DNA from: Nymphaea colorata
Lineage: Eukaryota > Streptophyta > Magnoliopsida > Nymphaeales > Nymphaeaceae
Length of the DNA stretch: 64,000 bases
NCBI RefSeq assembly: GCF_008831285.2
Contig: NC_045143.1
Coordinates: 16,404,464 to 16,468,463, forward strand
Direction: 5' to 3'
In this document: piece by piece, positions 14,001-62,479 of the stretch
Numbering within the stretch: position 1 is the stretch's first letter
Layout of the letters: every line of letters starts with the position of its first letter
The notes under the pieces: generated by a model
Told to the model about the DNA's origin: nothing
What the model saw: only the letters and a program-made list of their open reading frames with translations
The model's database searches: none
Translations under genes and position numbers: made by a program

Positions 14001-16283
14001 TACCCTTTTTGAGATTTCAATTTTGAGGGATGGTGGCCCTTCCTTAGCCCTGGCTTATAAGGACACCACATTTTATGTGATTTTGGATGACCACAAGAAT
14101 TACCATCATTTACTTAATGAAGTTCTTTAATGCTTTTTCTATTGATGCTTCTATAAACATTTTGTGATTGCATAATAAAGACCAGTAAACCTTACAAAAT
14201 CTGAAAACATATCTAATGAAACAGGATATAAACTTGAAACTTTTTCTCCTGGTACACCTCAGCAAAACAGGGAGCTGAATGGAAATTGTAATATAATAGA
14301 AGTTAATAGAGTTTTGGTGTTAGATAGGGATATACCTAAAATTATTGAGTCGATGCAATTCTTATGGCTGTATATTTGATCAAATGCATATGAAATGACT
14401 CTGTGGGAGGTCATTCCCCCTTGGGGGTCCTTGATTCCCAGGGCAAGAGCTTAAATTTACATCCAATGCCTATTGATGTGCCTTGCCAAGACTGCAACAA
14501 TGAATGGAGCTACATGAGCTAAACTCGCTTAAGCCTGACTTGAGTTAAATGAGCTGAAATTTAATCCAGTTGAGCACATGTTTACATGAATTCAACTCAA
14601 GTAGTTATATACATATTCATATGGAATGTTTTAATGTGTGGCAGCAGAAATGTGGTGGCTTCAGTCCTATTCAGGATAATTGTTGCCGTTCCTATCCTTT
14701 GAGCGTTCTGATTTTGATCTTTCCCCTCCGGCAGACTCAAAGAAAGTGTGCATGTCACTTATTTGTTGGAATATTCTCATGAGAATATAAACTTTGTGGC
14801 ACGTTGGCATTCTCTTCAACACCCTTGTTGTTATATAAAAACAAACTTTTGCTAATAAAATTGGTAGTTTTTCATGTTAATGTTTGTGCGTGTTCCTGGA
14901 GAGGATACAATTTTGGGGGATGTACATTGTCATGGCAAGAGGGGGAACATCAGATTGAGTGCATCAGTGTTTGATGAAATGACTAGAAGACAAGAAAACA
15001 TTTATGTGGATGAGCTTGTAGGTTTTCACTTTTCATCTTCAAGCTTAATTGAGTCCATATCAAGCTTTGGCACAGGTTATTCACTCGACTTTGTAAACCT
15101 TGACTCAAGTTCGAGCCGAGTAAGATACAAGTCGACCAAAGCTCAATAACAGTGCCTACCATGTTCACGTTCTTGCACAATCTAAGGCTACTGAACCAAG
15201 TGGCATCCTACCCAAACTTGGAACACTGCAACCTACATCTAAATCTTATTTACGCCATGAGTCAAGAATAACATGACTTCTGCACCACAGAAAAACACTT
15301 CTTACACCAGAACTCACTGCGTAAAGGAGAAACGGCCGTTGAAGGTATCATCTGACCTCATTAGCCAATTGAAACCGAAACATAGCAGCAGAAAAAAAAT
15401 CCATCCAGTGGCATATCATTTACCAGTTTCCATATTTCAGAAAAATTGGTTACCCACCACGTCTTCCACATGGCATAAGCTCGACCTAAGAAAAACAGGC
15501 AGAACAATGTAATTCAAGGAAAAAGTCAAATTTCAGCTACCAACGTTGAACATCTCTATTTTTGTCGGAACAGTTTCTAATTCCCAGACCACACATAAAA
15601 TTATTTGCCCCAATTTTCCACCTAAAAAAAAAATGAAACTAGCAGATCATGGAGAAAGAAAGACAGACGCCCAAAACAGTATGAAAGAACACTTCAGGTA
15701 CCAAAACATACAAAAGAACCGATCGACCCCGTCCAGGTAAGTATAAACATACAAAAGAATCGTCTACAACGGGTACACGAGACCGTTTTCGAAGCAGTAT
15801 CAGTCAAAACCACGACGACCATAATCATACAAGAGATTCTAACAATCATAAGCTGGTCATGTGCTCATCGTCTACAGGAAGAAAAAAGCCTCTCGGAATG
15901 TCATCCAAAACGTAGAAAAGACGAAAGAAAACTCCGTGGGCATCTCCTAAAATAGAGAAATTATGAGACTTTGTGGCCATAATAAAAAAGCAGAAAAAGG
16001 GAAAAGAAGGAGGAGGAGCGTGGAGAGTTTTTGCCTACTGACCAGTGAAGGGCTTGCGCTTGACACCGGGGTCCAGCTGGTTGCACCATCGGAGGCGGCA
16101 GGACTTGCCAGACCTGCCGGGAATCCCGCGGGCGATGAGGCTCCAATTCCTCGCCCCGAACTTGCCGACAAGGCGGCTGAGAACTGCGTCCTCCTCCGGC
16201 GACCATGGCCCCTTTATTCTCTCCTCCACGACGTTGCCTCTACTACCGCTGGCGCCGCTGCCTCCACCCTCTCTCTGCTTCAT
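11098..16283 (-). CDS. R2R3-MYB transcription factor, MYB1/MYB25/MYB109 type
   Basis: Exon 1 is 16283-16043 and exon 2 is 11903-11098, split by a 4,139-bp intron (donor ACTG/GTCAGT, acceptor TTGCAG/AGGAAG). The product is 348 residues. R2 spans about 24-74 with tryptophans at W27, W47 and W66. R3 spans about 76-125 with W98 and W117. The intron falls at the R2/R3 boundary, right after KRKPFT, and the join restores EEED. The phrases RIKGPWSPEEDAVLSRLV, NQLDPGVKRKPFT and GRTDNAIKNHWNSTL match subgroup 23 (MYB1/25/109) better than the MYB44/77 group, which reads NQLSPQVEHRPF. The C-terminal ~220 residues are low in complexity. It should act as a nuclear DNA-binding regulator; its targets are unknown. 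A longer upstream frame to 16358 begins with GTG, so the ATG at 16283 is preferred. Confidence 0.92.
11904..16042 (-). other. Long first intron of the MYB gene
   Basis: This 4.1-kb intron is AT-rich and has no recognisable coding relic. Several frames of 60-96 codons occur on both strands (for example 13258-13548 and 14874-15149) with no family similarity. Confidence 0.8.
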
Positions 16284-17399
16284 CTCTCTCTCTCTCCCGT
16301 TGTCCCCGAACCGGCAAGCGCACAGGCTCACACCCAAAACACGGACGGGGAACACCACCTAACTAACGGCAGCAGCTGAAACCCCAGTGTGGGGCCGATT
16401 TCCTGGATGCCGTTCGTCCCTGCAGATGAACGGCAGTCAAGCACCATCATAGATTCTTCGGTGCCTTCAATGAGGCCCCACGGATGTCTGGGTGCCCCGA
16501 CGTACCTGCTTTTCACTCAGAACCATCAAAAGATGGACGGCTCAAAGCAAATGCTCTGTGCTACTGGTCCTTGCCAGTTGTCCATCTCAGTGGATCGACG
16601 CAGTCCAAGGAAGGAACACTGAGGCAGGTCGCACTCGGAACGGACACAAACAACACCGAGGAGAGGATGCAACGGTGTGGAATAAGGAAGAGCTAAAGAA
16701 CATCTGCGTTTGATTCGGATTAAAAATTCCAAAGCCCCATTCTGGACCCGACAAATTTGCGTCGGATGGGATGTCGATGCACAGAGTTGAACGTTGCATC
16801 CGATCTTTTACTCAATACTGGCGAATCTATTTTTGTTGTCCAGCTTTTTGCGTTTCTTAACTCTCACTCACCTTTGGCTATCCGTTTGAATTCCCTTGAA
16901 AACATATATCACAGCATCATGCTTTTATTTTTCGGAATTTGCATAATGTCAGTGAGATGCAAATAGCAATGATGAGTATATATTTTTCTTCCTCTTCTAC
17001 TGTGCACAAGTATCTTCTTCTCTAGAATATATGTTTCAAGACATTTAGTCTCTGACAAAAAGCTTATAAAAAAACCCGCCAACTTTATATGTCGACAACG
17101 CCATGGAACATGACTTTTTTATTCTTACATTGATATTGATGTTTGGGAGGGGGTTGATTCTTGTCAACAGGAACCCGTTTAGAGGAATTTTGGAGGAACC
17201 TGAGTATTTTGCTTGGCAACTATAAGTTAATCAGCAAGAGACCACGTCTCAGGCAGCCAAATGCCATTCTTGAAGTTGAAATTGAGCAGAATCAGCATGC
17301 TTAGTAGGACCAGCTCGCACCTAGGTTGCCTTTATTGTTGCAATTGTTCAACGATGAGAAATCTAACAAATTGACATATAAAAATGCGTTAATTTCTAC
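16284..17399. other. MYB 5' leader and upstream region
   Basis: In mRNA sense a GA run (16284-16298) ends directly at the MYB start codon. Beyond it is GC-richer DNA to about 16700, then AT-rich DNA. I see no clear TATA box and no gene. Confidence 0.5.
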
Positions 17400-18306
17400 A
17401 TGGGTCGACATTGGATGCAGAAGTTTTTGAGCAACAACCACCAAGTCATGAAGATGCTCTATATCTTGATTATGTCCGTAAACTTTCAAAGGTACTTCAT
17501 GGCTTAACAGAGGCATCGGGTTTAGTTTGTAGTTAAATGATTCCTGTTAAAAACCTTGGAAGGCACTGTCATTTTCTTGGAATTGAATTTCTGTGGCACT
17601 CTTTGGAAAATTTTCTTTGCCAAAGAAAGTATGCAAAGGATACTTTGGAAAGACAGAAATGCTTGATTGTAAGCCTTCAAATATGACCACGACCCCAAAA
17701 AAGCCTAACCAAAGTTGTTTTTCTGGATTACAATCTCTATCGAAAACTTTTCCTTCATTGCAATGTCTAACACTCATCAGGCCAAAACTATCTCCCCTTT
17801 TGTCAATTATGGAAGTATATTTATGCACCAACCCTTGTTTGAGCATTTACAAATGGTGAAAAAGTTAAAGATTATGGTCAGTGGATCTTATCAAGCTCAG
17901 ATTAGGCAAGCTGCAAAAATTTCTTGAAGATCAATCACAAGTTCTTGTATCTTCAATTGGGAGTCAATTGTAAAGTATCATAGCATAATATCTGCTGCTC
18001 TTGAACTCATTTAAATCCTTTTCAATTGAAAGGATATCAGTGTCAGTGTCATAAAAAAGTTCCTGAACTTCATCATGATAACTTCATTGCCATTCACATG
18101 ACAGCAATTCCTGCTTTTTATAATAGGACCAAGCATATTCAAGTTGATCATCACCACATAAAAGCTTTGTAAAAGGCCAACTTCTTGCAGAACAAGAACC
18201 ATCCAGACAACAATTTGTTGACATTTTTACAGAACTGCAGGGCATGCTTAAGTTTCAATTCTTTTGTGAAAAACTTGGGCTTCACTTTCATAGCATGAAA
18301 AGGTAT
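17400..18306 (+). pseudogene. Ty1/copia retrotransposon pol relic (reverse transcriptase and RNase H)
   Basis: Fragments of copia pol appear in order on the plus strand. EVFEQQPPSHED near 17415 and VRKLSKVLHGLTEASG near 17480 are the RT finger/palm region. NLGRCHFFLGIEF near 17552 and RKYAKDTLERQ near 17625 follow. The RNase H segment HHDNFIAIHMTAIPAFYNRT near 18070 comes next, with FVDIFTELQGML and FCEKLGLH near 18220-18290. Stop codons and frame changes separate the pieces, and about 70 residues of RT between the GL-A-G and NLG motifs are missing. No gag, integrase or LTRs were seen. It is an old, dead copy. Confidence 0.8.
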
Positions 18307-22899: not shown

Positions 22900-25800
22900 G
22901 AAACTAGCAGAAGAGAGAGGACAACCCAGTCCCCACATTACTTCTACCTCCGACAGCCACTTTGAAAACCCACACCCCCCTCTCTGACCACACTTAATTT
23001 ATTGTCCCTCCCTCGACTAATTCCTTCCATATATTACAGCTGCCACCTCCTATTCAAAGACCCCCCCAAAAAAAAAAAGGCTATGAAGAACTAATTAGAC
23101 AATCAGTAGTAATATGGTACATGATTATATAAGCCCTTAAAAAATCTTAGATACAGGATTATTCTCAAATCTTTTTTTTTTTTTTTTCATTTCATAATGT
23201 ATTTCGGTGGTACACACGCATGTGAAACCTAAATTCAAGCGTTGAATTTGGATTCATTCAGAAATTTTTTTGGCTAATTAAGAAACTCTGCGGGTGCCAA
23301 AATTTTTAGGGCGTCAATTAAATAGTTTTTATAGGGTTGGTAACTTGGTGTAGGCAAATGCCCATTTTAGATGCAACAACGCCGTCAGTTTTCAAACCGA
23401 CGGATCCTCGTGGTTGGCTTGGATCGGCAACAAAAAAAACTAGAACAGAATCATGTCATTACATGAAAATTTTTGAAAATCTTTGTTACAGCGTATTATT
23501 CTCAAGCAATCCACTCCTCGCATATAATTGGGAGCAACACCATCATAAGTATGAGCAAGATTTCAAAATTTCATTATTATTATCCTGTTAAACACCAAGG
23601 TTTTCCTGAAATTTTGCAGGATTTAAAAAATCTGGAGGATTGCAGATCCATCAGTTCCAGATCTGGCCATAGATAACTGATAACTAATTCCGATCGAATT
23701 AAACGGGCCATCAATGCAAAGTTTAGTGTAAAGTCGATCTGCTGCTGTTTGAAGGATGGACTTTGTGCTTATAGTTATAGGGTTCAATTGATAGGAGAGA
23801 TACTTTACAAGCGGTTAAAGATTGTGGCAGGTTCACAGGACATTAACAATATTGTTCATAAATATGCATCAATCTTTGTGGCAGATTATTATAAGACACG
23901 CATGTAATGTTTCTACGAAATAAAAGCAAGCTGCCATCTAGATTTAGATTTTTTTTTTTTCTTTAAGATTAAATTTGTTATTCAATTTTGTTCTTATAGA
24001 GGAGGCTTTTTTTGTTTTTGTTTTTTTTTTGACCTGTGGATTGAGTTTAATCCGACTGATGTCGGACTGAATCTGCTTTATACAAAATTCGAACTGATAG
24101 ATGTTAAAAGTTGTCGGAATTAAATTTGGCACTCAAGTTTGTAAGCTTCCACGACTTTGACCGAGTAAAAGGCGCGTTCGTAAGAGGAGATACTCGAAGA
24201 TCAGATTAAAAATAGCCAATCACCACAAAATTTATACAAGTTTGACCAGAGTGAGGAGCCGTAAGGATGCCAATTGACCCATAATTGGGTGATTTGACTC
24301 GGTGGGTTTCCCACTGCCACGGCCAACAGGACAACGACTAAGAAACAAACAACTGGGTTCGGTCAAGATTTGGTTCGATGGCAAACTTGGGGTCATTGAG
24401 GGCGATTGATTGAGCCCAGCCATTGACTCGTGAAATATCGCGGCAGGTACGCCCAGCCGCCAAGCCACAACTCCGGCCGGAAAGAAGAATGTTTTGCGGC
24501 GGGCACAAATTGATTCAAACCGAATCCGCACAAGAATGAAAGACAAGTTATTCTCACACGAGAAACAAGCGAAACTGTAATCCTTCTTAATCTGTAATAT
24601 TTCTATGCCAAGCTTCCACTTTAACGTCTTGAGTTTCATAGTGTTGTGCTCAGAACCTTGCCTTTCTTCCTAAAGGCAGACCCATCATGTTTTTTTATTC
24701 TAGAAATTTCTGTCAGAGAAAAAAAAAAAGGAACAAAAAATTTGCAGTGAAAAACGATTTACAATGAAATTTCCTACTGCCAGTGCCGGTTGACCTGCTG
24801 AAGCCATCAAAATAAGCGTGGAACCGGGATGAAATTTTACAACTTTTCAACTTCGTATTGATTTTTTTTTTTTTTTTAATGGCAGCTCAGTTGTATCTTC
24901 ATAAAGTAATAATGGCTTCTCTTACATGAATTTGTAGTTTCTGTCGCTGCATCAAAAGTGCATCAGTGTTGATGCTCCTAATGATGACCGTGTAGTCGGC
25001 AGCACCTTTTGGAAAGGGGATCGCATGTGTGTTGTGCACATGCAAGGTTGCAACTCTGCTGCGTCCCTTGGGTTGCCCAAGAGAGGAGGAGCAGAACTGT
25101 TCCGTTCGTCAGTTTGAATATGAGCTGATTTTTGCCGTCGCCAAGGCCCTCTTCTCTATTATTTTAAACACATTAAATGTGCTTTGCTTCCAATAATCTC
25201 CTTCCTACTATTCTGATATTGATATTGATTAATGCGAGCTAAATAAATAGAGACGTAAGCTTCTCTGTCAAAGGAAGGCAAAAAGCACGTCTCCCCAAAA
25301 CATTCCGTGCTGCCATGAAAATGGTAAAACCTTCGCCTCACTAATTTATGAGTTGATGACTAATCAACGGTGATTGATTAATCAGTCAAGGAATCCGGTT
25401 ATCTTATAAATTAATGCAAAAAAATGGTTGGACTGGTGACCTTAAATGTTCAGCGCCATACGCGAATTTTTTTTAGTGGCAACTACTGCGCTACGATAAC
25501 ACCTTGTCCATCTCTTTCGGTGCTCCAATTAGCATCTAATCATGAGTAGATAAAGTTGGAAGTTGATAATTGACAATATTTCATTTCTCACAACTCAGTT
25601 GAACTCAAGCTCATGTTCATCCTCATTTTATTGCTATTGGTACTGAAGACGAAAAGAGGCCCTTGTGAAATCAGATCCATAGCAGTTCAAAAGTGGGCGA
25701 TGCCAAACCATACTATTTGCAGGATCTTGGATGATCAGATCAATTCATCAGTCTGTGGGGCGGTGTATTTTGGTAAAAATCGCCATCAGAGGTGACCACG

Positions 25801-27209
25801 ATATCTTTTGGCAGAGGAATAATATATACATATAGACGGGAAATCCGCTATTGGTTTATCTTTTTCATCTATCAAGTTGTTGAAAGGAAATCCGCCATCG
25901 AAACGTCCAGCGCAAGTAATTAGTGGGGACTTTATTCTAGCTGTAACAAGACACAAAAGGAGATCGACCCATACTGTAATTATACTTTTGAAGGAAGTTA
26001 TATCTGCTGATCAAGAGAACTAAACTTGCACTGTGTTGCCTGTTGTAGAAGAAGCTTGCGTTGAAAGTACGCAACATTCAAATAATAGGTTTACCTCCAT
26101 CCTGGTTCACGACAAGGGGCATGCAACTTTGAGTAGCGGAAGCAGATGAATGAAAAGTGCAGCCGTTCGTTTAGCTTAGTCTCGCTCACTAAAACCTGGT
26201 TCATGTTCGGCTCGGTAAGAACGTGAACCAAACGAGAGATTTTTTTTTTTTTTTTTTTTTTTTTTGTCTTTGTAAATATAATTGGTCAACTCGTGACTCA
26301 GATTCTAATGGGCAAACTAATGACGGGTCACCAAGTCAACGAGCTGACTTAGTCAAGTTTTAAAATAACCAAAATGTAAATCACTGCAGCTGAATCGGAT
26401 GAGTCAAGGCCAGATCAAGCTCAGTTATGCCAAGCCATGGGGGAGTCAGGGCCAAGCTTTTGCTGTGATCCCAATTGGCTGGGGCGATTCCCGAGCTTTG
26501 CCAACTATGCTTGCAAGCATCGAAGGAAAAAATCATCTTGACTCCGCCTTGTATAGGCCCATTTATGAATATGTCACATGATTGAAGTTACTTATTAATA
26601 ATAAGCTATACTATACTTGGTTTTATTACTTGTCATCATCAGCTGAACTCGAACTTGCTTCTGGGTAAACAAGGATATAAACAAGCCGAGTCGAAAACTG
26701 AAATTTGATGGTGCAGTTCTCTCTAGTTCATTGCCCAGCAGCCTCACTTCAAATGTTGATCAATTCTTAATCAGTCCAGCCCCCTAATATGGTAAATGAA
26801 GTAGTTATGGCTACTTTCAAATAAGTTCATCCAATCCCCTTCTTTTTTTTAATGGAACAGAAAGGAAATTTTAGATTTAACTGCTGGCGGCTTAATTGAC
26901 GAGATTCCCGTTAGTCAAACTGATGACTTGATTAATGCTATCAGTAAATTAGCGTTTAGTTGGAAATGCCATGAGAGAAAATTATTACAAGAAGGATGGG
27001 GTAAGGCCAGGGGGCCCGTTCTTAAAGCTAAAGGTTCTCTTGTCCATGTGGGTCTTTGAAGAAAAGCAGTGACGGCTTTGCCTTTCCGGTTGCAGTGTGT
27101 GCTGCAAACTAGTTAAAAAGGGTGAAAAAGAAAAAGAGCGACGGATAGGATTTGATAAGGCGGAGAGCATCAATGGTGGTTGCGCCGCCCGAGTTTGGCC
27201 TTTTCAAGA

Positions 27210-27217
27210 TATAAAAA
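27210..27217 (+). promoter_or_regulatory. TATA box, probable pri-miR393 promoter
   Basis: TATAAAAA followed by a GC-rich stretch lies 157 bp upstream of the mature miR393. Initiation about 30 bp downstream would place the hairpin roughly 120 nt into the primary transcript, a usual arrangement for plant MIR genes. Confidence 0.55.
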
Positions 27218-27359
27218 GGGGGGCGCGGGGCTGCGCCTACGGGGAAGATTAAGGGCTTGCGTTATATTGATCTTCCACCGTATGTACACAGGATGGAGGC
27301 TCCAAAGGCAGTGCAGCAAGAGGTTGTGGAAGTCTCTAATAACAATGCAGCGAGAGGGC

Positions 27360-27441
27360 GGAAGTATCCAAAGGGATCGCATTGATCCCTGCAGGCTCTC
27401 ACATCCGAGCTTTGGATCATGCGACCCCTTTGGATTCCTCC
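27360..27441 (+). ncRNA. MIR393: MIR393 microRNA precursor
   Basis: The 22-nt mature miR393 occupies 27367-27388 on the 5' arm, starting TCCAAAGGGA and ending CATTGATCC. To my knowledge it is identical to the conserved plant sequence. The star strand is on the 3' arm at about 27416-27436 (ATCATGCGACC...TTTGGATT). The arms at 27360-27388 and 27414-27441 pair nearly throughout, with a loop of about 25 nt (27389-27413) and only isolated mismatches. That is a typical DCL1 substrate. miR393 directs cleavage of mRNAs for TIR1/AFB auxin-receptor F-box proteins and feeds tasiRNA production from some of them. The open frame over this region (27180-27725) is incidental. Confidence 0.95.
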
Positions 27442-28979
27442 TCCTCATGCTTCCTTCATTCTCTGCAGATACAAGCACCACCCATCTTCTCTCTCCCTCT
27501 TTCTTTCTCTGCCTGTATGTGTTGGTTGCTATATTGCTTTTACTTGAATTTGTTGATATAAGTTGGTTGATCGTTTTCCTTCTTAGCCGGGTAGACATGG
27601 GTTTCTCCATTTGTTTTCAATGTGATCTACAATATGGCATATCTCGAGTTGCGAATAACGATTCTGTTCTGATGATAGAATTTGTAGTTGGTTTTCCTGA
27701 GAAAAAAGAAAAACAACAACAATAGTGGAGCGGCTTCCATCTTAGACACTGGTTTCTCTTGCTACAGCCTTGGTCATGGAAGTAGATCCCCGTGAGTGCA
27801 TGTATGTGTGTGTGATTTGGAAACGTGGACGACGGTTGAAATGATTGTCAAGTTACCTTTGATCAGGTGAAATATTTAAGGGCTACCCTCTAAATTTTTC
27901 AGTTTCTGGTAGCCTTTTCTTTTTTCACCTTCTGCAACTCCAGCCAGTTGGATTTCGGGGCCGATTCCGTCAAGCGGTGTGACGATAAGAACTTCTATTG
28001 AAAGAACTGAACTCACTCTGCTACAGCCATGGATGATAGCTGCACCAGCAGCAACCTACTCCTTCGCCATTAGCCAGGATGCAGGTAATTCTTTTCGAGG
28101 TCATGCTTGTTAAGGCCACTTCTATATTGATTCCTCAACCTGTGGTTTGTCATGTTCGACCTCTCAATCACTGGTTATACATTTGCACCCGTGACCGACA
28201 GTCACAGATTTAAGGGGGCTTGTCACTCTTCTCTGGTAGAGATCAACTTGGCGTCCGATCAAAACTGTAGGGTTAATTTCTATCAAAGAATACCCAGTAA
28301 TTGGGTTAAAAACTTGGTAATAATTAAACTACTATACAGGTTAGAGAGAAATCTCAATAGATCAAAAGTAGCTGAAAACGAGGTGGGTGTACCCCGTATG
28401 ATGTGACAACAAACTTTTTCACCACGGCACATGCTTGAATGAGATAGATAACATGCACCCTTTCCCAAGATCGCTAAAAGCCAATATTTTATCAACGGAC
28501 TTGGCTTAGTCATCTTGGGCAAGTGGTCTAAGTAAAAGCTGGCAGTCTTTTCAACCCATGCAGCAGGCTGCAACACCTTCCTTCCTCACATGAATCCGAT
28601 GCCAATCAATAAGAAACTAGTCAATTCTTCCATCTCCTGTTAACTATGCAGCTAAATCTTAGTCCCTGCAACGCTAGTTTGCATCTGCTGCCTCAATCTG
28701 GTCATGCCTTTATCTGGGTTTATCAAGCCTTTTAGTTAAAGGAGATGACAGGCCAAGTCTGTATGATCTCCACTTCCAATTGCAAATGCCGCATATGCGT
28801 CCAAGGGAATTTATTTTGATAACTGGACCCCACTTTTTAGCGGGTTTTCAGTGTCAGACCGGGTGGAATCACATTGCGGGCAGGGCTTCTCTGCCAGCCA
28901 CAGATATTGGGCCCGACTGACAGTAGAAGCTGCTTAAATTTTGGCTGGATTTCGGGATAGAAACTACATGTGCTACTCG

Positions 28980-28981
<2 letters not shown>

Positions 28982-29020
<39 letters not shown>
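28982..29020. repeat. (TA)n microsatellite
   Basis: Nearly 40 bp of uninterrupted TA dinucleotide is followed by a second short ATATAT block. Confidence 0.95.
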
Positions 29021-29023
<3 letters not shown>

Positions 29024-31355
29024 CATATATATATTAGAGACATGGTTACATGACTACTTTTCTATATTGATGTTGACCATCACCATAGTTCATCATAGCT
29101 TACTTGGTAGAGAATAAACAGTGGCTATGAGAAGTAAAATTCAAAGGCTTACACTGTAGTGAAAGTTGCGAGTTCTCGAGTTCAATGAAATTCGATCAAC
29201 GCGAAGGATGTTATTTAATCTGCAGCTGTCCGTCTCTCAGGGACTTGGTTAACCTACATATGGTCAAACTTCAGCAGAAAATGTTAAAAAATTGATGAGG
29301 GGAACAGGAAAGAACTTCTTGCCAGACAAAAGTGGTTCTTGGGGAGCAAACTTCAAGATGTGTATTATGGTGGCCGAGTCGCTTATCAAGGTATGCTGTT
29401 GAATTACTTACTTCATGTTCTGCTCCAAAAGAAAATTGTAATTATATATGGCACGTGCTTCTTATTATTGCAGACGTTAAATTCCGTCAGGTAATATGAT
29501 TTTTTGGGATCATTTTTAAACAATGCCAATGATGTTTTAAAATTTTTTATTTTCTTATTGCTATTATCATTTTAATGAAGGGAGGGCTTCATTAATCACA
29601 AAGCTTTGTGAAGACAACATCATATATGGTAAAGCTTAATAAACAGGAGCTATGGCAACGACTTGATTCAGAGTCTTCAACAACACGTACTTACTCCCCT
29701 ATAGTTTCTTAACTAATGTACGCAGCACCAGCTTTGAAACGATTTACGACTGAAGATCTGTGGGGCTGTGCAGAGCTAGAAAAGAAAATAAAACAATATT
29801 TCAAGAGGACTGGTTCACAAATTTTAAAGCGGGATTAATCTTTTATAGTTTTTATACCTCTTGAAAACTATTTTTTAAAAATTCAGTATAAATTATAAAT
29901 TGTTTGAAAATCCCCGCCCCTGTGGATGCTGTATTCAAGATCTTCAAATAGTGAAACATAACAGGGATGCACTGCTTGTAAGAATGTTCAATATTTTGCA
30001 AAGAATACCGTCGATGTTCTCTAAAATAATCCATTCTGACTCGCAGAAGTCAGCAAACCTTACCCCGTCATCATAACAGCAGCGAGCAGCATTGCATGTG
30101 AAGTTTCAGTCTCCTTATATTGCTAAGTTCGCGGGATCAAGATCGTACTTGGAATTTGGAAAAGGTCAAGTTGACTTCAGGAAAGCCTTTTGGTTTCTGC
30201 CGCCGGAAATGGCGACAACCAGTCGCCAAGATTTGTCTAATTTTCACACATTAAGAGTAGATTTTGGAATTTCTTTTCCCGGAAATCGTAATAAATTCCA
30301 TTTATTAGTTAATCTATATAATTTTTTGACGATAACGAGAAGATGGCTCCTGACCAGAAGATGATCGATCTAATTGAGTGACACCAAGTTCGCGCGGCAA
30401 CAAGGGATGTGAGCGGATCGGATCCGGGTTGCAGGCTTTTTTTTTTTCTTTATCTTTTTCTTTTTTCCATGATCAGATATCACACGCCGGACTAGATCCA
30501 AAGTCATCATGTGTAGATCCAGACTTTATTATGCAACAGCAAATAGAATTGAAATTGATGTCACCGTGTATTCAGCAAAATGATATATATATATATATAT
30601 GTGCGTGTGTGTGTGCGTGTTTGACAGATACTTGAAGCCAATCTCTCAATTTATTCTTGCTTTTTTTTTCCTTCGCTTTTAGGATATATATTTGGGTATT
30701 TTGAATCGCTAAACAAGCTTTGGTTCACGAGGCTTGCCTTTGAAAGTACTTAATTAACTAAGCAAAAGGTGAGAACAGAATTGATAACCGCAATGAAGCA
30801 AGAGAAGATTTCTAATTTGCCTTTAATTTATGGCCAAGAAAACTTTAGACGGAAAACCAAAAAAACGGCCTTAAATAACTTTTTCGAAACTCCAAAAAAA
30901 AAAAAAAAAAAGATAATGAGGAAGTAACTTCACGAGCTTTTTTTGTGGCCATCAATTGCGATGGATGTAATGAGATCTATCATCTATGGGCCCACGAAGT
31001 GTTTGCATGTTCATTATGATCCCTGGCGATGTAGAACTTTACATATAAAACCCCTCCGTGGCCCTATCAAACCAATATGGGTTGACGTTTATGCATGATT
31101 AACCACCTGATTCACATCATCGATCCATTTAGCCAAATGCACCAAAGAAATTTGGCTTTAATTTCGAATCGGATTCAGTTTCATAGCTGAATCTGAATCC
31201 GACAGCAATGTCCGAGCGGGAATCAAGAATATAAATCTCGGATGTTAGAATGATCAGTCTTAAAAAGTGGTCCAAATCCAAAGGCCGATCCAGAAGTTGA
31301 TTACAGGAATTCTTCAGTGAAGGCTGGATCCAACTCTTGTAGTGGAGTTACATGT

Positions 31356-32347: not shown

Positions 32348-33743
32348 CTATATAGATGCAGGAGCAGCAGCAAGGGGGGATGCATCGCTCTCGGGTGCTG
32401 GTGCCACCACCCCGGAGCTCAGAAGCTCAGCCATGCCCCTGCGGGGGTTGGTCCTCTGGATCTCGCAAAGCTCGGGCAAGAACACACCTGTCGGAGAGTT
32501 GAACAAAAAGCTGATCAGCAAATGATTTATAACAAGTGAGGAATCGGATGTGAAATGCCTCCATTATTTAGATTAATGAAGGCTAGGTGCTGGTTAATGT
32601 TTGGATTGGTTTATCTCACCTTCACCGGCGGCCAGATTGAAGTAGAGGTCGACGATGTTGGGGCAGTTGCCGTAGCACTCCGCAGAGCAGAGCTTGGCTG
32701 TGAACTGAGGCTCCATGAGCGAGTCGGAGGAGATCCCAACCGAGTTCCGGTCGACGCCGCAGAGCCTCACGCACTCATCGGTTTCGATCCACTCGGTCAT
32801 CTTCTCCACCACCACCTCGGAGGTCCGGCATTGGAACTCGGTCGAACCATCTCCGAGCACAAACTTCTCGAGCACGCAGCGCTTTCCGGCGGACGAGATC
32901 GCGAAGGCGCAGACATCCTGAGGCAGATCCTCACACACAATTGCACCTGCGGAACCAAAACCATCCATGTTAACGTAATTGAGCTTGTGAGATCGACCAC
33001 AATCAAGAGAACGGAGGTTCGGCCATGGATCAGGCCTCCGGCCTTCCTTCTGTTCGGTCGTGTGGAATCGGAGACCCAGCTGCTACAACAGTCTAATTTT
33101 GAAACGAAATTGAATTTGGATTCCAACTACAAATTCCACGAACCCAACTGCCCCATGCAGGAAAACACAAAACAAATAAGGCGGAAGATATAAAGACATG
33201 ACACGAGAAAGAGCTTGAATTCGGCATAAATATAGAGAGGGAACCGAGAAGCTCTCGAGTCGTATCAGTTGATGTACAAGAATTGACTTTGGTCAAAAAT
33301 TGCGCACAAAGATATCTTCATTTATCTATTACGTGCGTCCGCCGTGACGCTGGACGCACGGTCTTTTATGAAATTATTAAGGAATGATTTGAATATCAAA
33401 CATGCGATACCTACTCATAATATCGAGCGTTACGTATATAAACATTGAAGTCTACAATCAACTTTAAATTTGGCAGATCCTTGTACCATAAGATTAGTTC
33501 GTCATCCGTCAAACTATACATGGATTGGGAAAGAAGAAGAAATTCCTCTACGTCAGCCTATGGGTTTTGGAGAAAAATAACACGAGACTTTGGAAGAAGG
33601 CCGTTTGCATGGGAAAAGCTCAACACCTATTACGTTGTTCCAGGTCGGGCAGAGGGGAGAGATTACGTACCAAAGGCGCAGTGGAGCGCTAGGGACAAGG
33701 CCACAAGAAATGAGAATCTGAGAGACAATGAAGAAGAAGCCAT
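32348..33743 (-). CDS. PAR1-family secreted cysteine-rich protein
   Basis: Three exons: 33743-33671, 32946-32620 and 32487-32348, with GT-AG introns of 724 and 132 bp. They give 179 residues. Residues 1-25 ([20 protein letters not shown] then HCAFG) are a signal peptide, so the protein should enter the secretory pathway. The mature part matches plant PAR1 (photoassimilate-responsive protein 1) closely. It has [12 protein letters not shown], the block [40 protein letters not shown], and [16 protein letters not shown] near the end. About a dozen cysteines are in conserved positions, probably as disulfides. PAR1 proteins are known from sugar- and pathogen-responsive expression; their biochemical role is not settled. 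The C-terminal tail is rich in Ala and Pro. The opposite-strand frame (32555-33193) is a shadow. Confidence 0.93.
33332..33360. repeat. 9-bp inverted repeat in PAR1 intron 1
   Basis: CGTGCGTCC (33332-33340) and GGACGCACG (33352-33360) flank an 11-nt loop. The repeat is GC-rich in an AT-rich setting and holds an ACGTG core. No function can be assigned. Confidence 0.4.
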
Positions 33744-33847
33744 GGCTGGGCTGCAGCTTCCTCTATTCACCGAATCTGATGAAGGAAGAAAAGTTGGGTC
33801 TCTCACGCTCCTCTCGCTACGAGAAGCAAGGGCAACGGCAGAGGGGG

Positions 33848-36779: not shown

Positions 36780-39387
36780 TCATAATATCAGCACATTTTC
36801 TTGATCCACAGAAAACCTTTGCCTTTTTTTGCCTGCACATTGTGAAAATAAAAATATCCAGTCAACAGGAGAAAAATATCTGAAACATGCATGACGACGC
36901 AAATTTGAGGGCATAGATGAAAAAAGAATTCCTCAAATTACCAGGGCTATTAGCCTTAATACATGCAGGTAGTGGCTTAGAAAGTTGCGCACTATCATCA
37001 ACTGCTGTAAGATGCCACAGAAGGAGCGAAACCATCATCAGCTCTTATTTGTTGTAAATAATTATGAAAACAAGAAAACTGGAAGAAAGAAACTTTTTAC
37101 TCACTTCCGCTGTTCATGTCTCTCTCAGAGAGGACGACTGCATTTGAGCGAGGAAAGTTTGAGAAGGCTCCACCAATTCTCGAATTCCTCTCTTTTTCAA
37201 CACATGGGCTGCACATTATCCACGTTAAGAAGATAAACTCAACAGCCAAGGTAAAATTAGAATGAAATTGCAAACTTCCAATGGGACCAATTCAGAGAGT
37301 AGAGTAAAACCTTGAGATAAGTTTGGTTGCTGGATCTAATGATGACTGATCAGCAAGAGCTGCTACTTGAGAATCGAACTCAAAATCAATCAGATACGAA
37401 AGTGACACATCGTTGTCGAGAATACCAAAGTTTAGAAGGTCATCTATATCAAAAACTCCCTCTTTTGCACCCACCGTAAGAGGACCAGGAGATTCAGATA
37501 TGGATCGCTCAGAGTTCACGGCCGTGCTGGAATCATCAAAATCCAATCTGCCCTTTATGTGTCCCATTTTGCCCGACCTTTTTGTACCAAATTTTGAAGG
37601 CGAACAAAATTGCTGGCAGTCTTCGTACATGCCACAACCGGAAGATGTATTTTCATTTGCACCAGATTGACGAACATAGTCATTAGCCGTAGTTACTTCA
37701 GGTGATAGGACAGTTGATTGGTTGGGGGATGCTGTCTCCATTGGAGAGCAATATGCATCAGTTTGCAAGGAGTGCTGCTGTGGAGTTTTGGGGGAGGAGG
37801 ATTCTCCTTCTGGAGTATAAGACTGATGAAGTTCACTGTTTGAAACAGGTTGCCCTTGAAGTAATGAGCTGGGAAGAATCTGATCATGGGAAATTGTCTG
37901 TGTCTTAGAATACCCTGTAAAGGTTTGACCTGTACCAGTGACATGGCCGACTTCTTGTGGCTGTGGTCTATTAGCTGCAAAAAAAATACCAATGTCAAAA
38001 ACTGAATAGCTTGCATCAGCTGGTCCAAAAAACTGATCAACTGGAAGGAGAAACAGGGGCGTTGAACTGTTTCCCATTAGCCCTTAGTAATGTAGAGAAC
38101 TTCTTCTGTCTGTTACCTGTTCTGTTAGGAATATATGCAGGGACCTGGGGGAAAGATTTCTTGGCCGACGAGTATGGTTGAGGAACAGATCCAGACACCT
38201 TCCTCTTATTGTTTTGAGAAGAAATGGTAGGAACCATAGAAGTAGTACTACTGTGTGATGCCACATTCCGCAGCGTAGGCACTGGATTTGTGTTCACAGA
38301 ATTGGCTACAAAACCAATAAGAAAATAAGAAAATAAGAAAAACGGGAAAAGAGAAAAGGAAACCAACACCCATTCTTTCTATCTTGATGTAAAACAGAAG
38401 GAATCGATCCATTTGACAATGTCAAGCTCATTTCTTGGCATTTTTCATGTTTACCTTGTTTGCCTCACATCAATGAAACAACAAGGCTATAAGATCTAGT
38501 AGCTGAGTACTTTAGCATAGATCATCAAAACAACGACCAATTCTAGTGAAAAGGAAATCTTCAAGGCTCATAGATGCACATACATAACAAGTGAGGTCAT
38601 CAACTACAAGCCATTCCTTCTGGTACAGCTACTAGAACACTCTGACCACCCAGATTTCATACTGAACTGGGAATGGAAATGATGATGTAAAACAAGTTCC
38701 AAAAATTGTCGGATAGTGTATCTCACTTGAGCCAGATAAGTACGCACTGTTAGTTTGATGGAAGATGTCTGTTTGAGATTGAAGGAAATTGGAAGCAAAT
38801 GAGGACTACGAAAATTGCTCCATCATTATTTTTCTCAAGAACGAGATGGCAGACTCCCACGGGCAACAATTAAGCGTTTAACTAATACTGGTAACTTGGG
38901 AGGACAAAGAATTTGAAGTACTACCTGTGGTCGTTGAAGGCACAGGTTCCGGCCGAGTAGAAATGGCGGCATGATCTGACGATTGGTAGGCTTTCATCAC
39001 CTCCTGCATCCCCTGCAACAACTTCTCCACCCTGGTTTTCTCTTGATCCAGGAACACTCTCTGCTCCTTCAACGATATATACTCGTTCAATATGTCCTCC
39101 AAACTCAACAAACTCTTTGGCGCCTAAAAGAAAGCTCGATCCGTTTAGAGTTGGATGAGGAAGGAAAAGACAAGACATAATCTGGAGAGAAACGAAGATA
39201 AAAGACTTACCTCCTTCATCTTAGATTTGGAGAGAAGGGCGGAAGCCTCGGACCTAAAGACGGAGAAGGTCTGAGTATAGTTATTGTCGATGAGGTACCT
39301 GTCGACAATGAAGGCCACCTGGATGGGGGTCACCAGCCCTTTGCCCAACTTCTCTGGCCTCTTGGTTTTTCCGGAGACCTTGCCCAT
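36780..39387 (-). CDS. LisH-domain nuclear protein with NPAT-like layout
   Basis: Seven exons: 39387-39211, 39123-38925, 38305-38117, 37974-37311, 37208-37105, 37004-36942 and 36832-36780. All introns are GT-AG and the frame is continuous for 482 residues. A LisH dimerisation motif lies at about 20-52 (VAFIVDRYLIDNNYTQTFSV). A predicted coiled coil follows at 66-105 (LEDILNEYISLKEQRVFLDQ). The middle is Ser/Thr/Pro-rich with about eight S/T-P dipeptides between 240 and 352, including a full CDK-type SPSK at 313-316. Residues 360-390 are acidic and hydrophobic (FDIDDLLNFGILDNDV), like an activation domain. Basic patches (NKRKV; AKKRQR at the C-terminus) suggest nuclear import. I recognise this as a plant-conserved LisH family. 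Similarity of plan to animal NPAT is my inference. The last exon is the least certain. Confidence 0.82.
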
Positions 39388-39417
39388 TGTGGTAGAGAAC
39401 CTGCAGAAGGGCACAGG

Positions 39418-39420
<3 letters not shown>

Positions 39421-39448
<28 letters not shown>
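39421..39448. repeat. (GA)n microsatellite in the LisH-gene leader
   Basis: Fourteen GA units lie about 35 bp upstream of the start codon; they read (CT)n in the mRNA. Confidence 0.95.
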
Positions 39449-39454
<6 letters not shown>

Positions 39455-39569
39455 AGGAGTGACAAAGAAGGAGAGAAAGAGCGATTTAATGGGTATTGAG
39501 GAAGACGAATGGAAGCGGGAGTTTTCGAGTTCATTGATAGAGAGATGTAATCGTTTTGGAAGGAGGGAA

Positions 39570-39590
39570 GGGGGGGGGGGGGGGGGGGGG
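39570..39590. repeat. Uninterrupted 21-bp G run
   Basis: A G homopolymer lies about 185 bp before the LisH start codon and would read as 21 C in mRNA sense. Such runs are rare and prone to sequencing error. Confidence 0.8.
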
Positions 39591-39636
39591 AATCCATTTT
39601 TTCCTTTTTCTGCTTTGAAATTTTCAGGTGGGCATG

Positions 39637-39676
39637 TTTTGGCGGGTGTGCCCGCGCCAAATCCATTCGCGGGAAA
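39637..39676. promoter_or_regulatory. Cluster of three E2F-type sites upstream of the LisH gene
   Basis: TTTTGGCGGG (39637-39646), GCGCCAAA (39654-39661, reverse of TTTGGCGC) and GCGGGAAA (39669-39676, reverse of TTTCCCGC) each fit the E2F consensus TTT[C/G][C/G]CGC or a close variant. They fall within 40 bp and 250-290 bp from the start codon. E2F/DP sites drive expression at G1/S in plants. Confidence 0.65.
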
Positions 39677-42600
39677 CGACGGCTCTCCCTCTCTCGCTTG
39701 CGCGGGCGTTCAATGTTGCCGTTTATCATATTGATGGACGGCCGTCAGTGTCGCTTGCTTTCCTTCCTCCTCCCTCCCTCCGACCCTTTACAAAAAATTA
39801 AAAAAAGGTTCCTTGGGTTTAATGAAAATACATGACCGCCGGCAAATTTCAAAGTTTATTTAATCGCCGATTCCGCCATCTCATTACAACTTAGTTCCAG
39901 TAAACCTAAAATATTGAGATAAGAGCAGTTTTTTCCTATCGAAAATTACGAACCCGAAACGAACCATACAGCAACCAATAAACGATAAGCCAGCGATTCA
40001 TGCTAATCAAGTATCAAACTAAGATTTCATCTATGCGTTGCTTTATTTTTTAAGCGTATAAATCCCTTGATCGTGTCCTACAGAAGCATAATGCATTTAG
40101 CGTGTTTCTTTTGTCGATAACAATTGGATCATTTTTAAAACGAGAAGTATGCCCGTTAAACTTGATAATACAGATCTCAGATGTGAGGATTTCAAAAATT
40201 TTCTCTTTAGCTTATGAATACGGAGTAAGAACTTCTTCGCTTCCCTGACTGGAGATCAACGGATTTTATGGACGAAAATGTAAAGCCAGCGGGCTCACAA
40301 AACCATGGATTTGAGGTCGCCGAGACATTAGATTCGGCATTCAGATCTCAGATCTAGGGTAATCAAACCCCCTATGGATGGAGTTGTGCCATTAATTTTT
40401 GAAACCCGTTATATTCCGAATAAGCAAGTGATTTGAATAACATTTATGTGGGAAGATTTGGGTTCCTAATTTTGTCTCCGATTCATATTGACGGTAGGAG
40501 GGATAATGGCTTCTTTTATTTTAATTATTGCCACTTTTCCATCTTCTCACTTTTCTCTCTGTAGTTTGTCACATGGGTATAATCCAAAACATTTGTTAGT
40601 AAGATTCAACCGTTACACTATCTACTAACGACAAAGTAGCGAATTTTTATGAAACGTCAAAAAACCAATGCCCCAACAATTCTCTTTATAGTTTCTATTT
40701 CACGTATGAACAATCTTAAGCAATGGGTATCAGATCCAAGGCCATAGATGTCCCGATCTGGATCTTAGAGTCAAGGTCACGAACCTCTGGATAAAACAAC
40801 GCGGAACCCAGACACACCGCGCACTGGTAAGTCAGATACCGTGTGAACCTACCTAGCACAATGCTCCCCTTTCCCCTCGGTCTAGGGCATGCTCAAACTT
40901 GCATAGATTATACAACGTTGGTAAACATACACTGGATCTAGTGAATTCAGTTAGCAAGTTGTTCGAAATGGGTGGCTGACCTACATATACTCTGAACCAA
41001 CACTTGAGCTGGATCCTGGAACTGTAATTGGCAAAACCCCAACTATAGAGTCCTAATGCAGCTATACCAGATTTAAATCCATTTAGCCTTCTTCTTCCAG
41101 TTGCAAACTAGACGTGTGATTGTTTTAATGGTCAACTGGTGTTGAGAGATATTCGTGGAAGTTCCAGCTTGGCCAAGTTGTGAACTGCTTGGCTTACATT
41201 TAAGTTCTCATGAACAATAATGCCATGCGCAAATTAAAAAACGCATACTTGCGAAAGTGGAATTTTTTTTATAGAGGGACACAGACACACACAAAAGCTT
41301 ATCGCCACAGATAGAAAGATATTCGCACGGGAAAGGTGCGAAGTGCCAAGAACACGAATTTCATCTCAGCCCCTTCTTGTCGGCCTACATTCCTCTAGCT
41401 TCCTAACGGGCATGATTCATGGCCGAGTCCTTGTTGTTTCACAGCCTGAATAATTGAAGCATGGAGAACTTGTTTAACCTACACTGGGATCCTGCCTATT
41501 ATTTTCCCGTATCCGCCAAGCGTGGAAGGGGTCAGCCTGGCCTATCCCTTCTAACCAGATCGGGGCTTTATTTGGGCTCACCATTGCCTTCCAAGCCCTC
41601 TATGCTCATTAGTTCAGCTTGTTGTATGATGTTAATTCAATGTACAAACACGGTATCTCTAGTGTCTAGATGATTACAATCAAAGACGGACAAAACTGAA
41701 GGCTGCCATGAGGCTGAAGCCCTTAACCAATCAAAGCCAAATGATGTTGGGTCGCCCTCAAGCATCATACTTGAAGCAGTTGATTTTCACAAACCTGGTT
41801 TCCTGTGGTCCTATGACATTCGAGTGGCTTTGGGACCCCTACCTTTTAAGGATCTCAGAGGACCTGGGATCCTCGATTGCATGCGATCCATATGGGCCCG
41901 CTTGTCAGGTACCACTCTGATACGCGATGAAACGCACACCGACTATTTCGCGCCAACATAACCGAGAAGTTAACTTCAATATTCGTCGCTGAGCACAATC
42001 CAACAAAATGCCTTTTCTTCCAAGGGAAGAAATGCAAGAATTTACCGCCAACAAGTGCGGGAACGGGTTCCACCGTAACGTGATTAAAAAGAACCATCTC
42101 ATCACTTCAACCGACACCCTTCAAAGGCTAGGCGGCCACCCGGATGTGTCCCGAAAGATCTGATCTCCTGCACGGGACAAGAACAGGCAAGAAAATGGCT
42201 TATTGTAAAGGGCAGCTACGCAAACGATAACCAATGACAGGAACAACAAGGACAGCTGGCTAGGCCTGAGCGGTAGCGGTAGGACAAGGGTAATGGCCAC
42301 TCAATCGGAAGTCAGAGCCATCAGCTCAAACTGCTTTTGCACACCTGGAGCACATGACGCTGCTACCCTTTTTGATGCCTCAGATGTACTGGGTACAGAA
42401 AACCCATATGCATTCGTGCTTTCACAAGAGCGACGACAGCTCATGCGTGGCCGGTGGGCATTCGTTTTGCAGTGAACAAAAGCGGATACCACACCATCAG
42501 ATGTGGCTCGGTGAACCAAGTCGTTCAACAACTGCGACATTAAAATCGGGCAATAACTTCCGACATTAGAATAGATAAGGGAAAAAAAGACAAAAGAAAA

Positions 42601-60747: not shown

Positions 60748-60823
60748 GGAGAACAGAGGGCGCATCCGCTTGTCAAGAGAAAAGCAGAATCTTGCTTCAC
60801 AGGGTCGCGTATCACCTTCAACG

Positions 60824-62479
60824 ATGGCGGACCGAGGTTCGGTCTCCCATGTGCTAATCTTCCCCTTCCCTGGTCAGGGCCACATAAACTGCATGCTCAA
60901 TCTCGCCGAGCTACTCTCCCTCGACGGCGACCTCTGCGTGACCTTCCTCAACTCTGAGCAAAACGACCTGCGACTCCGTCGGTGCACCGACCTCCACACC
61001 CGCCTTAGCTCCCGTAAGAACTTACGATTCCGTGCAATCACCGACGGGCTCCCGGATGATCACCCGAGGTCGGCGGACGAGATCCTGGAGATACATGCTT
61101 CGCTGAGGAAGACGACCAAGAACGTCTTCAGGCAGATGCTAAAAGCTTCCCAGGAGGAGGGAGGGGATAATATCGGGGAGAGGTGGCCACCTGTTTCATT
61201 TCTGATTGTTGATGGGATCATCTCCTTTGCTGCGGATGTCGCAGAGGAACTTGGAATTCCATGCATCTCCTTCAGAACGATTAGTGCAGCGAGTTTCTGG
61301 GCCTACTTCTGTATACCTTGGCTTGCGGAAGGTGGAGAGATTCCCTTCGGAGGTATCGCAGTTTTAGTTTGAATTACTTCCGATCGTAGGAACTCTGGTT
61401 CTATCATTCTTTATTGACCCCCCCCTTTTTTTTTTTTGAGAGTAACGAAGTGCCAAGTTGAGAGGGGTCTGTATGATGATGTATTGGTTAGCAGCTGGTT
61501 TCTGAAAGATCAACTTGTTGTTTGGCTTGCAGAAACAACAGACATGGACCGCGTCACGAGATGCATTCCAGGAATGGAGGGGGTGGTTCGTCTAAGAGAT
61601 CTACCCAGCTTCTGCCGGGTAAATGACCTGAACGACGAGTGGCTTCGCCTCGTCCTGACCGAAACCCACCAGTCGGTGAAGGCAACAGGAATCATCCTCA
61701 ACACGTTCTACGATCTTGAGGCAGCTGTGCTCGATCGGATGTCCGCTCGTTTCCCCAAAATCTACACCATTGGCCCGCTCAACGCGTTCTTGAAGTGGCG
61801 GAGCCTGGACCGGCCGGCAACCTTGGGCTCGGCTAGCCTGTGGAAGGAAGACAAAGGGTGCATGGAGTGGCTGGGGAAGAGGGAAAAGAGGTCGGTGGTG
61901 TACATCAGCTTTGGCAGCTACACTCGGATCACTGCGGAGGAAATGGGGGAGTTCCTCCATGGCCTGGTTGGTGCCGGGTTCCCTTTCCTATGGGCGATAA
62001 GGCCTGACCTGGTGAAGGGTGAAGTAGGTTCGGTTCCTGCCGCGCTCTTGGAGGCAGCTCAAGAGAAGGGGTGCCTGGTTGAGTGGGTTCCGCAGGAGGA
62101 GGTGCTCGCCCACCCATCGGTGGGAGGCTTCTTGACGCACAGCGGGTGGAATTCAACCCTTGAGAGCATCTTCTACGGGGTGCCGATGCTCTGCTGGCCC
62201 TTCTTTGCGGACCAGCAGATCAACAGTAGGTTGGTGAGCCATGTTTGGAAGGTGGGGTTGGACATGAAGGACACCTGCTCGAGGGAGGTCATTGAGAGGT
62301 TGGTGAAAGAGTTGATGGGTGAGAAGGGTGAGCAATTGAGGGGGAACGCGATGCGGATGAAGGAGCGTGCATGGAGAAGCATTGAAGAAGGGGGATCCTC
62401 TTACACCAACTTTCAAAAATTAGTGCAGGATATTAAGACACAAAAACTCAAAGGCGGCATCAACAAAAACTGCCAGTGA
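60824..62479 (+). CDS. UDP-glycosyltransferase, UGT85/UGT709 (7-deoxyloganetic acid glucosyltransferase-like)
   Basis: Exons 60824-61352 and 61533-62479 (180-bp intron, donor GGAG/GTATCG, acceptor CTTGCAG) give 491 residues, the usual family length. GT1 enzymes move a sugar from a UDP-sugar to small acceptors in the cytosol. The catalytic dyad is H20 in PFPGQGHINCML and D130 in FLIVDG. The 44-residue PSPG box is at 361-404, from WVPQEEVLAHPSVGG through THSGWNSTLES to FFADQ. It ends in DQ, which favours UDP-glucose. The acceptor-facing N-terminal half cannot be read from sequence. The C-terminal half (QQINSRLVSHVWKVGLDMKD, EGGSSYTNFQKL) resembles UGT709-type enzymes; the true substrate is open. 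GHINPM, usual in the family, is GHINCM here. A TATA box lies at 60740. Confidence 0.94.

Follow-up and report, generated by a model that had tools for sequence, protein, structure and literature searches.

MIR393 is a long-known conserved family, and it is normal for MIRNA genes of plants to lie between other genes. In Arabidopsis, miR393 targets the receptor genes TIR1, AFB2 and AFB3 and not the other members (PMC7048394), and the 22-nt miR393 triggers secondary siRNAs on the target receptor mRNAs (PMC7960677). In the window, by which we mean the whole stretch of 64,000 nt of Nymphaea colorata DNA that was analysed, we found a locus that shares with the family (Rfam RF02516) the same mature 22-mer, both arms, the hairpin architecture and predicted targets of the TIR1/AFB2 type. 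It differs from the family in its short loop (27 nt) and in the restriction of its predicted targets to two genes, and nothing else about it stands out. We conclude that the locus is almost certainly a functional MIR393 gene, one of two copies most likely retained from a whole-genome duplication. The hairpin, the geometry of its duplex, the conservation at the paralogue and the target sites lying in frame can be read directly from the DNA.

The hairpin and its duplex

The hairpin consists of the following parts:

27351-27450, plus strand: pre-miR393 hairpin with lower stem, from the fold and the RF02516 match
27367-27388, plus strand: miR393 on the 5' arm (5p), 22 nt, UCCAAAGGGAUCGCAUUGAUCC, from the sequence and the duplex geometry, with predicted ends
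27389-27415, plus strand: terminal loop region of 27 nt, unrelated to the 47-nt loop of the paralogue on C5
27416-27436, plus strand: miR393* on the 3' arm (3p), 21 nt, AUCAUGCGACCCCUUUGGAUU, from the sequence; it pairs with 5p, leaving 2-nt 3' overhangs

An earlier, sequence-only reading of the window had reported an intact miR393 hairpin, and both arms were indeed present where it had placed them. MIR393 calls were judged against the curated gathering score of RF02516, which is 60, and the region 27357-27443 (plus strand) reached 72.6 bits with this model (E 3e-14). The mature sequence occupies the canonical 5' arm, and 27367-27388 agrees with the consensus of the Rfam model when aligned to it. 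Folding of the segment 27340-27460, which the same reading had proposed as a check, gave one long hairpin with the two arms paired and a minimum free energy of -56.4 kcal/mol, compared to -32.1 ± 3.8 kcal/mol for shuffles of the segment (z -6.45; 0 of 200 shuffles as good as the native fold); the unpaired arms that would have spoken against a hairpin were not seen.

In the duplex, base 1 of the star pairs with base 20 of miR393 and base 1 of miR393 pairs with base 19 of the star, so that 2-nt 3' overhangs are formed at both ends. The 5p strand has two unpaired bases and the 3p strand one internal mismatch. U17 of 5p forms an asymmetric bulge, because of which the guide is 22 nt long, and A10 is mismatched with a C. 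The family model also matched the minus strand at 27358-27444 with 64 bits. A second, antisense MIR393 gene was rejected, as this match is the mirror of a near-perfect inverted repeat; the copy on C5 likewise gives an antisense MIR393 match, there below the threshold.

A second MIR393 copy and the conserved upstream block

The genome searched comprised 407.8 Mb in 783 contigs, with 14 contigs longer than 12 Mb and a fifteenth of 7.3 Mb; the published Nymphaea colorata assembly has 409 Mb, 804 scaffolds and 14 chromosomes (PMC7015852). Genome-wide, two MIR393 loci scored above the Rfam threshold, namely the locus in the window and C5:2740798-2740904 (66.5 bits). The 5p arms of the two copies are identical over 22 nt and the 3p arms at 20 of 21 positions, the star of the window locus having GACC and that of the C5 locus GATC. 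Position 10 of the duplex is fully paired in the C5 copy, whereas the window copy has the A10-C mismatch. Outside the hairpin, a single upstream block of 87 bp gave a convincing alignment between the two loci (74% identity, E 6e-9; blastn of window positions 24000-31000 against the C5 locus). Two features of the window are needed for the comparison:

27129-27216, plus strand: proximal promoter block that includes GAGCATCAATGGTGGTTGCGCCGCCC and ends in the TATA box, from blastn and global alignment of the paralogues
36865-39744, minus strand: LisH-domain gene, collinear with the C5 MIR393, from tblastn of window ORFs against the C5 block

The TATA box that the earlier reading had noted, ATATAAAA at about 27209-27216, is present approximately 150 bp upstream of the hairpin and closes the block conserved at the C5 paralogue. 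The global alignment also places it at the end of this block, and its assignment as a TATA box is plausible, being conserved at the duplicate. Upstream of the TATA box, at 27129-27209, GAGCATCA(A/G)TGGTGG(T/A)TGCGCCGCC is conserved in both MIR393 paralogues, and this block may represent a shared regulatory element.

The LisH gene lies downstream of both MIR393 copies on the minus strand (its C5 copy at about 2752.4-2755.1 kb), with matches to the LisH domain that were below the Pfam cut-off (E 0.0025-0.0056). Over 334 codons, the dS of this gene pair was 0.94 with YN00 and 1.19 with NG86. A whole-genome duplication with a KS peak at about 0.9 has been described for Nymphaea colorata (PMC7015852). 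Because the LisH gene is collinear and has a dS of approximately 0.94, the pair of MIR393 genes most likely derives from this whole-genome duplication, and as this dS matches the KS value, both have stayed conserved for a long period. Two COI1-like genes (C6:16204463 and C5:3172378) were dropped as support for the collinearity, since they lie on opposite sides of MIR393.

The alternative that survives best is that the MIR393 of the window is silenced or dying, its hairpin persisting while only the C5 paralogue is expressed. The A10-C mismatch, which is absent at C5, would be consistent with such a loss. However, the 5p arm is fully intact, the stem is still compatible with DCL1, and the TATA block has remained conserved after a dS of about 0.94; a neutral hairpin would have decayed in the way the loop did. 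We consider a silenced copy very unlikely and retain the reading of a functional MIR393 gene. Because the mismatch is found only in the window copy, the C5 copy could be the main source of miR393.

Genomic surroundings and the overlapping ORF

The borders of the intergenic stretch and the ORF that covers the hairpin are as follows:

16000-16281, minus strand: first exon of an R2R3-MYB gene, left border (Pfam Myb_DNA-binding, E 5.8e-18)
27180-27725, plus strand: spurious ORF of 181 aa, not a gene (no Pfam match above the cut-off; frame lost at the paralogue)
32360-33745, minus strand: PAR1-family gene, right border (Pfam PF06521, E 1.7e-57 on one exon; ends approximate, by eye)

Between the end of the MYB exon near 16281 and the PAR1 gene starting at about 32360 lies a gene-free stretch of approximately 16 kb. 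We scanned 20 ORFs against Pfam, selecting the longer ORFs and sampling among the others, and two of these 20 belonged to the LisH gene outside the gap. Within the gap, no match above the threshold was obtained for the 18 scanned out of 68 listed ORFs of at least 65 aa, nor for the ORF with a TTG start that covers the hairpin, and for these ORFs the absence of a protein gene described by the sequence-only reading holds. At 17150-18300 (plus strand), broken frames resemble by eye a Ty1-copia reverse transcriptase (LGRHCHFLGIEF ... KYAKDTLER), and the fragments scanned from this region had no Pfam match. Elsewhere in the window, ORFs at 60770-62479 resemble by eye a UDP-glycosyltransferase gene that seems to be divided by a single intron.

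The warning that the ORF at 27180-27725 might be mis-called as a gene was justified to the extent that this ORF exists, and as its 181 codons span the hairpin, the locus could be thought to encode a protein or peptide. Against this, the ORF starts with TTG and has no Pfam family above the cut-off. At the C5 paralogue, the peptides of the two arms are in different frames, the matches are restricted to short peptides encoded by the arms, and the spacing of the arms differs by 20 nt. We judge the ORF to be spurious and non-coding because of these different frames and the arm spacing of 47 nt compared to 27 nt, and we regard an encoded product as extremely improbable. That the hairpin is an inverted repeat formed by chance, or a repeat of the MITE kind, has a virtually negligible probability, as we found no point in its support, the expected number of occurrences of the exact 22-mer is approximately 5e-9 for the window and 3e-5 for the whole genome, the 121-bp segment 27340-27460 has its own locus as its single DNA match in the genome, and both the Rfam match and the second MIR393 locus on C5 contradict it.

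Predicted targets and the miR393 circuit

For the functional MIR393 gene, two receptor genes of C7, located near 18390300 and 18534000, contain the best complementary sites outside MIR393. Each site reads GAGACAATGCGATCCCTTTGGA, follows the reading frame of the last exon (E-T-M-R-S-L-W), has a score of 2.5 and is perfectly complementary at guide positions 1-18. The two genes have 84% identity over the surrounding 550 nt, yet the site is identical. The C7 product matched Arabidopsis TIR1 (2p1m_B) with E 6.5e-63, and the complementary site is thus carried by TIR1/AFB2-type mRNAs of both genes. Two of the five intact TIR1/AFB-type genes, both on C7, have a miR393 site; those on C1, C2 and C11 have no usable one, as MRSLW or MRFLW is encoded there by codons that destroy it. 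This restriction to two of five receptors parallels the targeting of TIR1, AFB2 and AFB3 only in Arabidopsis (PMC7048394). By eye, the five intact-looking genes comprise two AFB2/3-like and three AFB4/5/6-like genes; no clear TIR1/AFB1-type gene was seen among the five, which, as an assignment by eye, does not imply a missing clade.

From established plant miRNA biogenesis we infer transcription, processing, target cleavage and secondary siRNAs. Transcription by Pol II would begin a short distance past the TATA box at about 27210, the transcript would fold at 27351-27450, and DCL1 would cut out the duplex of 22-nt miR393 and 21-nt miR393*. Loaded into AGO1, miR393 would direct cleavage of the mRNAs from both C7 auxin receptor genes of the TIR1/AFB2 type, and as a 22-nt guide with the U17 bulge it might trigger secondary siRNAs from these mRNAs, as in Arabidopsis. 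Given these sites, miR393 is predicted to dampen auxin sensing via the two receptor genes.

When the terminal exon of the C7 gene was used as a DNA query, five further decayed AFB2-like copies were obtained, located at:

C4:9310270
C6:15653979
C10:3872459
C10:4936141
C12:4584748

These copies share sequence among themselves beyond the AFB2-like part, the C10 pair over 1.66 kb; their upstream part has further partial relatives on C10 and C8, and their downstream part has relatives elsewhere. The miR393 site is near-complete in four of the five (score 4 to 4.5), and in the C12 copy it aligns only with a one-base deletion. In four copies, translation of the region surrounding the site showed interruption by stops or frameshifts; the copies look like old pseudogene duplicates. 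If transcribed, these copies, at least five in number, could serve as miR393 decoys or sources of siRNAs that adjust the MIR393/AFB2 module of this lineage. We hold this to be a long shot, and nothing in this analysis supports a decoy role.

The locus is real and well preserved, and within its well-known family it is ordinary. As a microRNA gene it is clean and can be annotated; annotation based on proteins overlooks it, and covariance-model annotation detects it at once. In the literature searched we found no published miR393 reads in Nymphaea; ANAgdb (PMC13149400) is said to contain a list of Nymphaea colorata miRNAs, so the window locus may already be catalogued there. The Water lily pond resource (PMC12038890) lists two small-RNA sets, CRA019696 and CRA019738, and gives statistics on non-coding RNAs for N. 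minuta. The finding reveals nothing new and confirms the known deep conservation of MIR393: with two MIR393 duplicates and two receptor genes with preserved sites, the miR393 circuit is intact in an early-diverging flowering plant.
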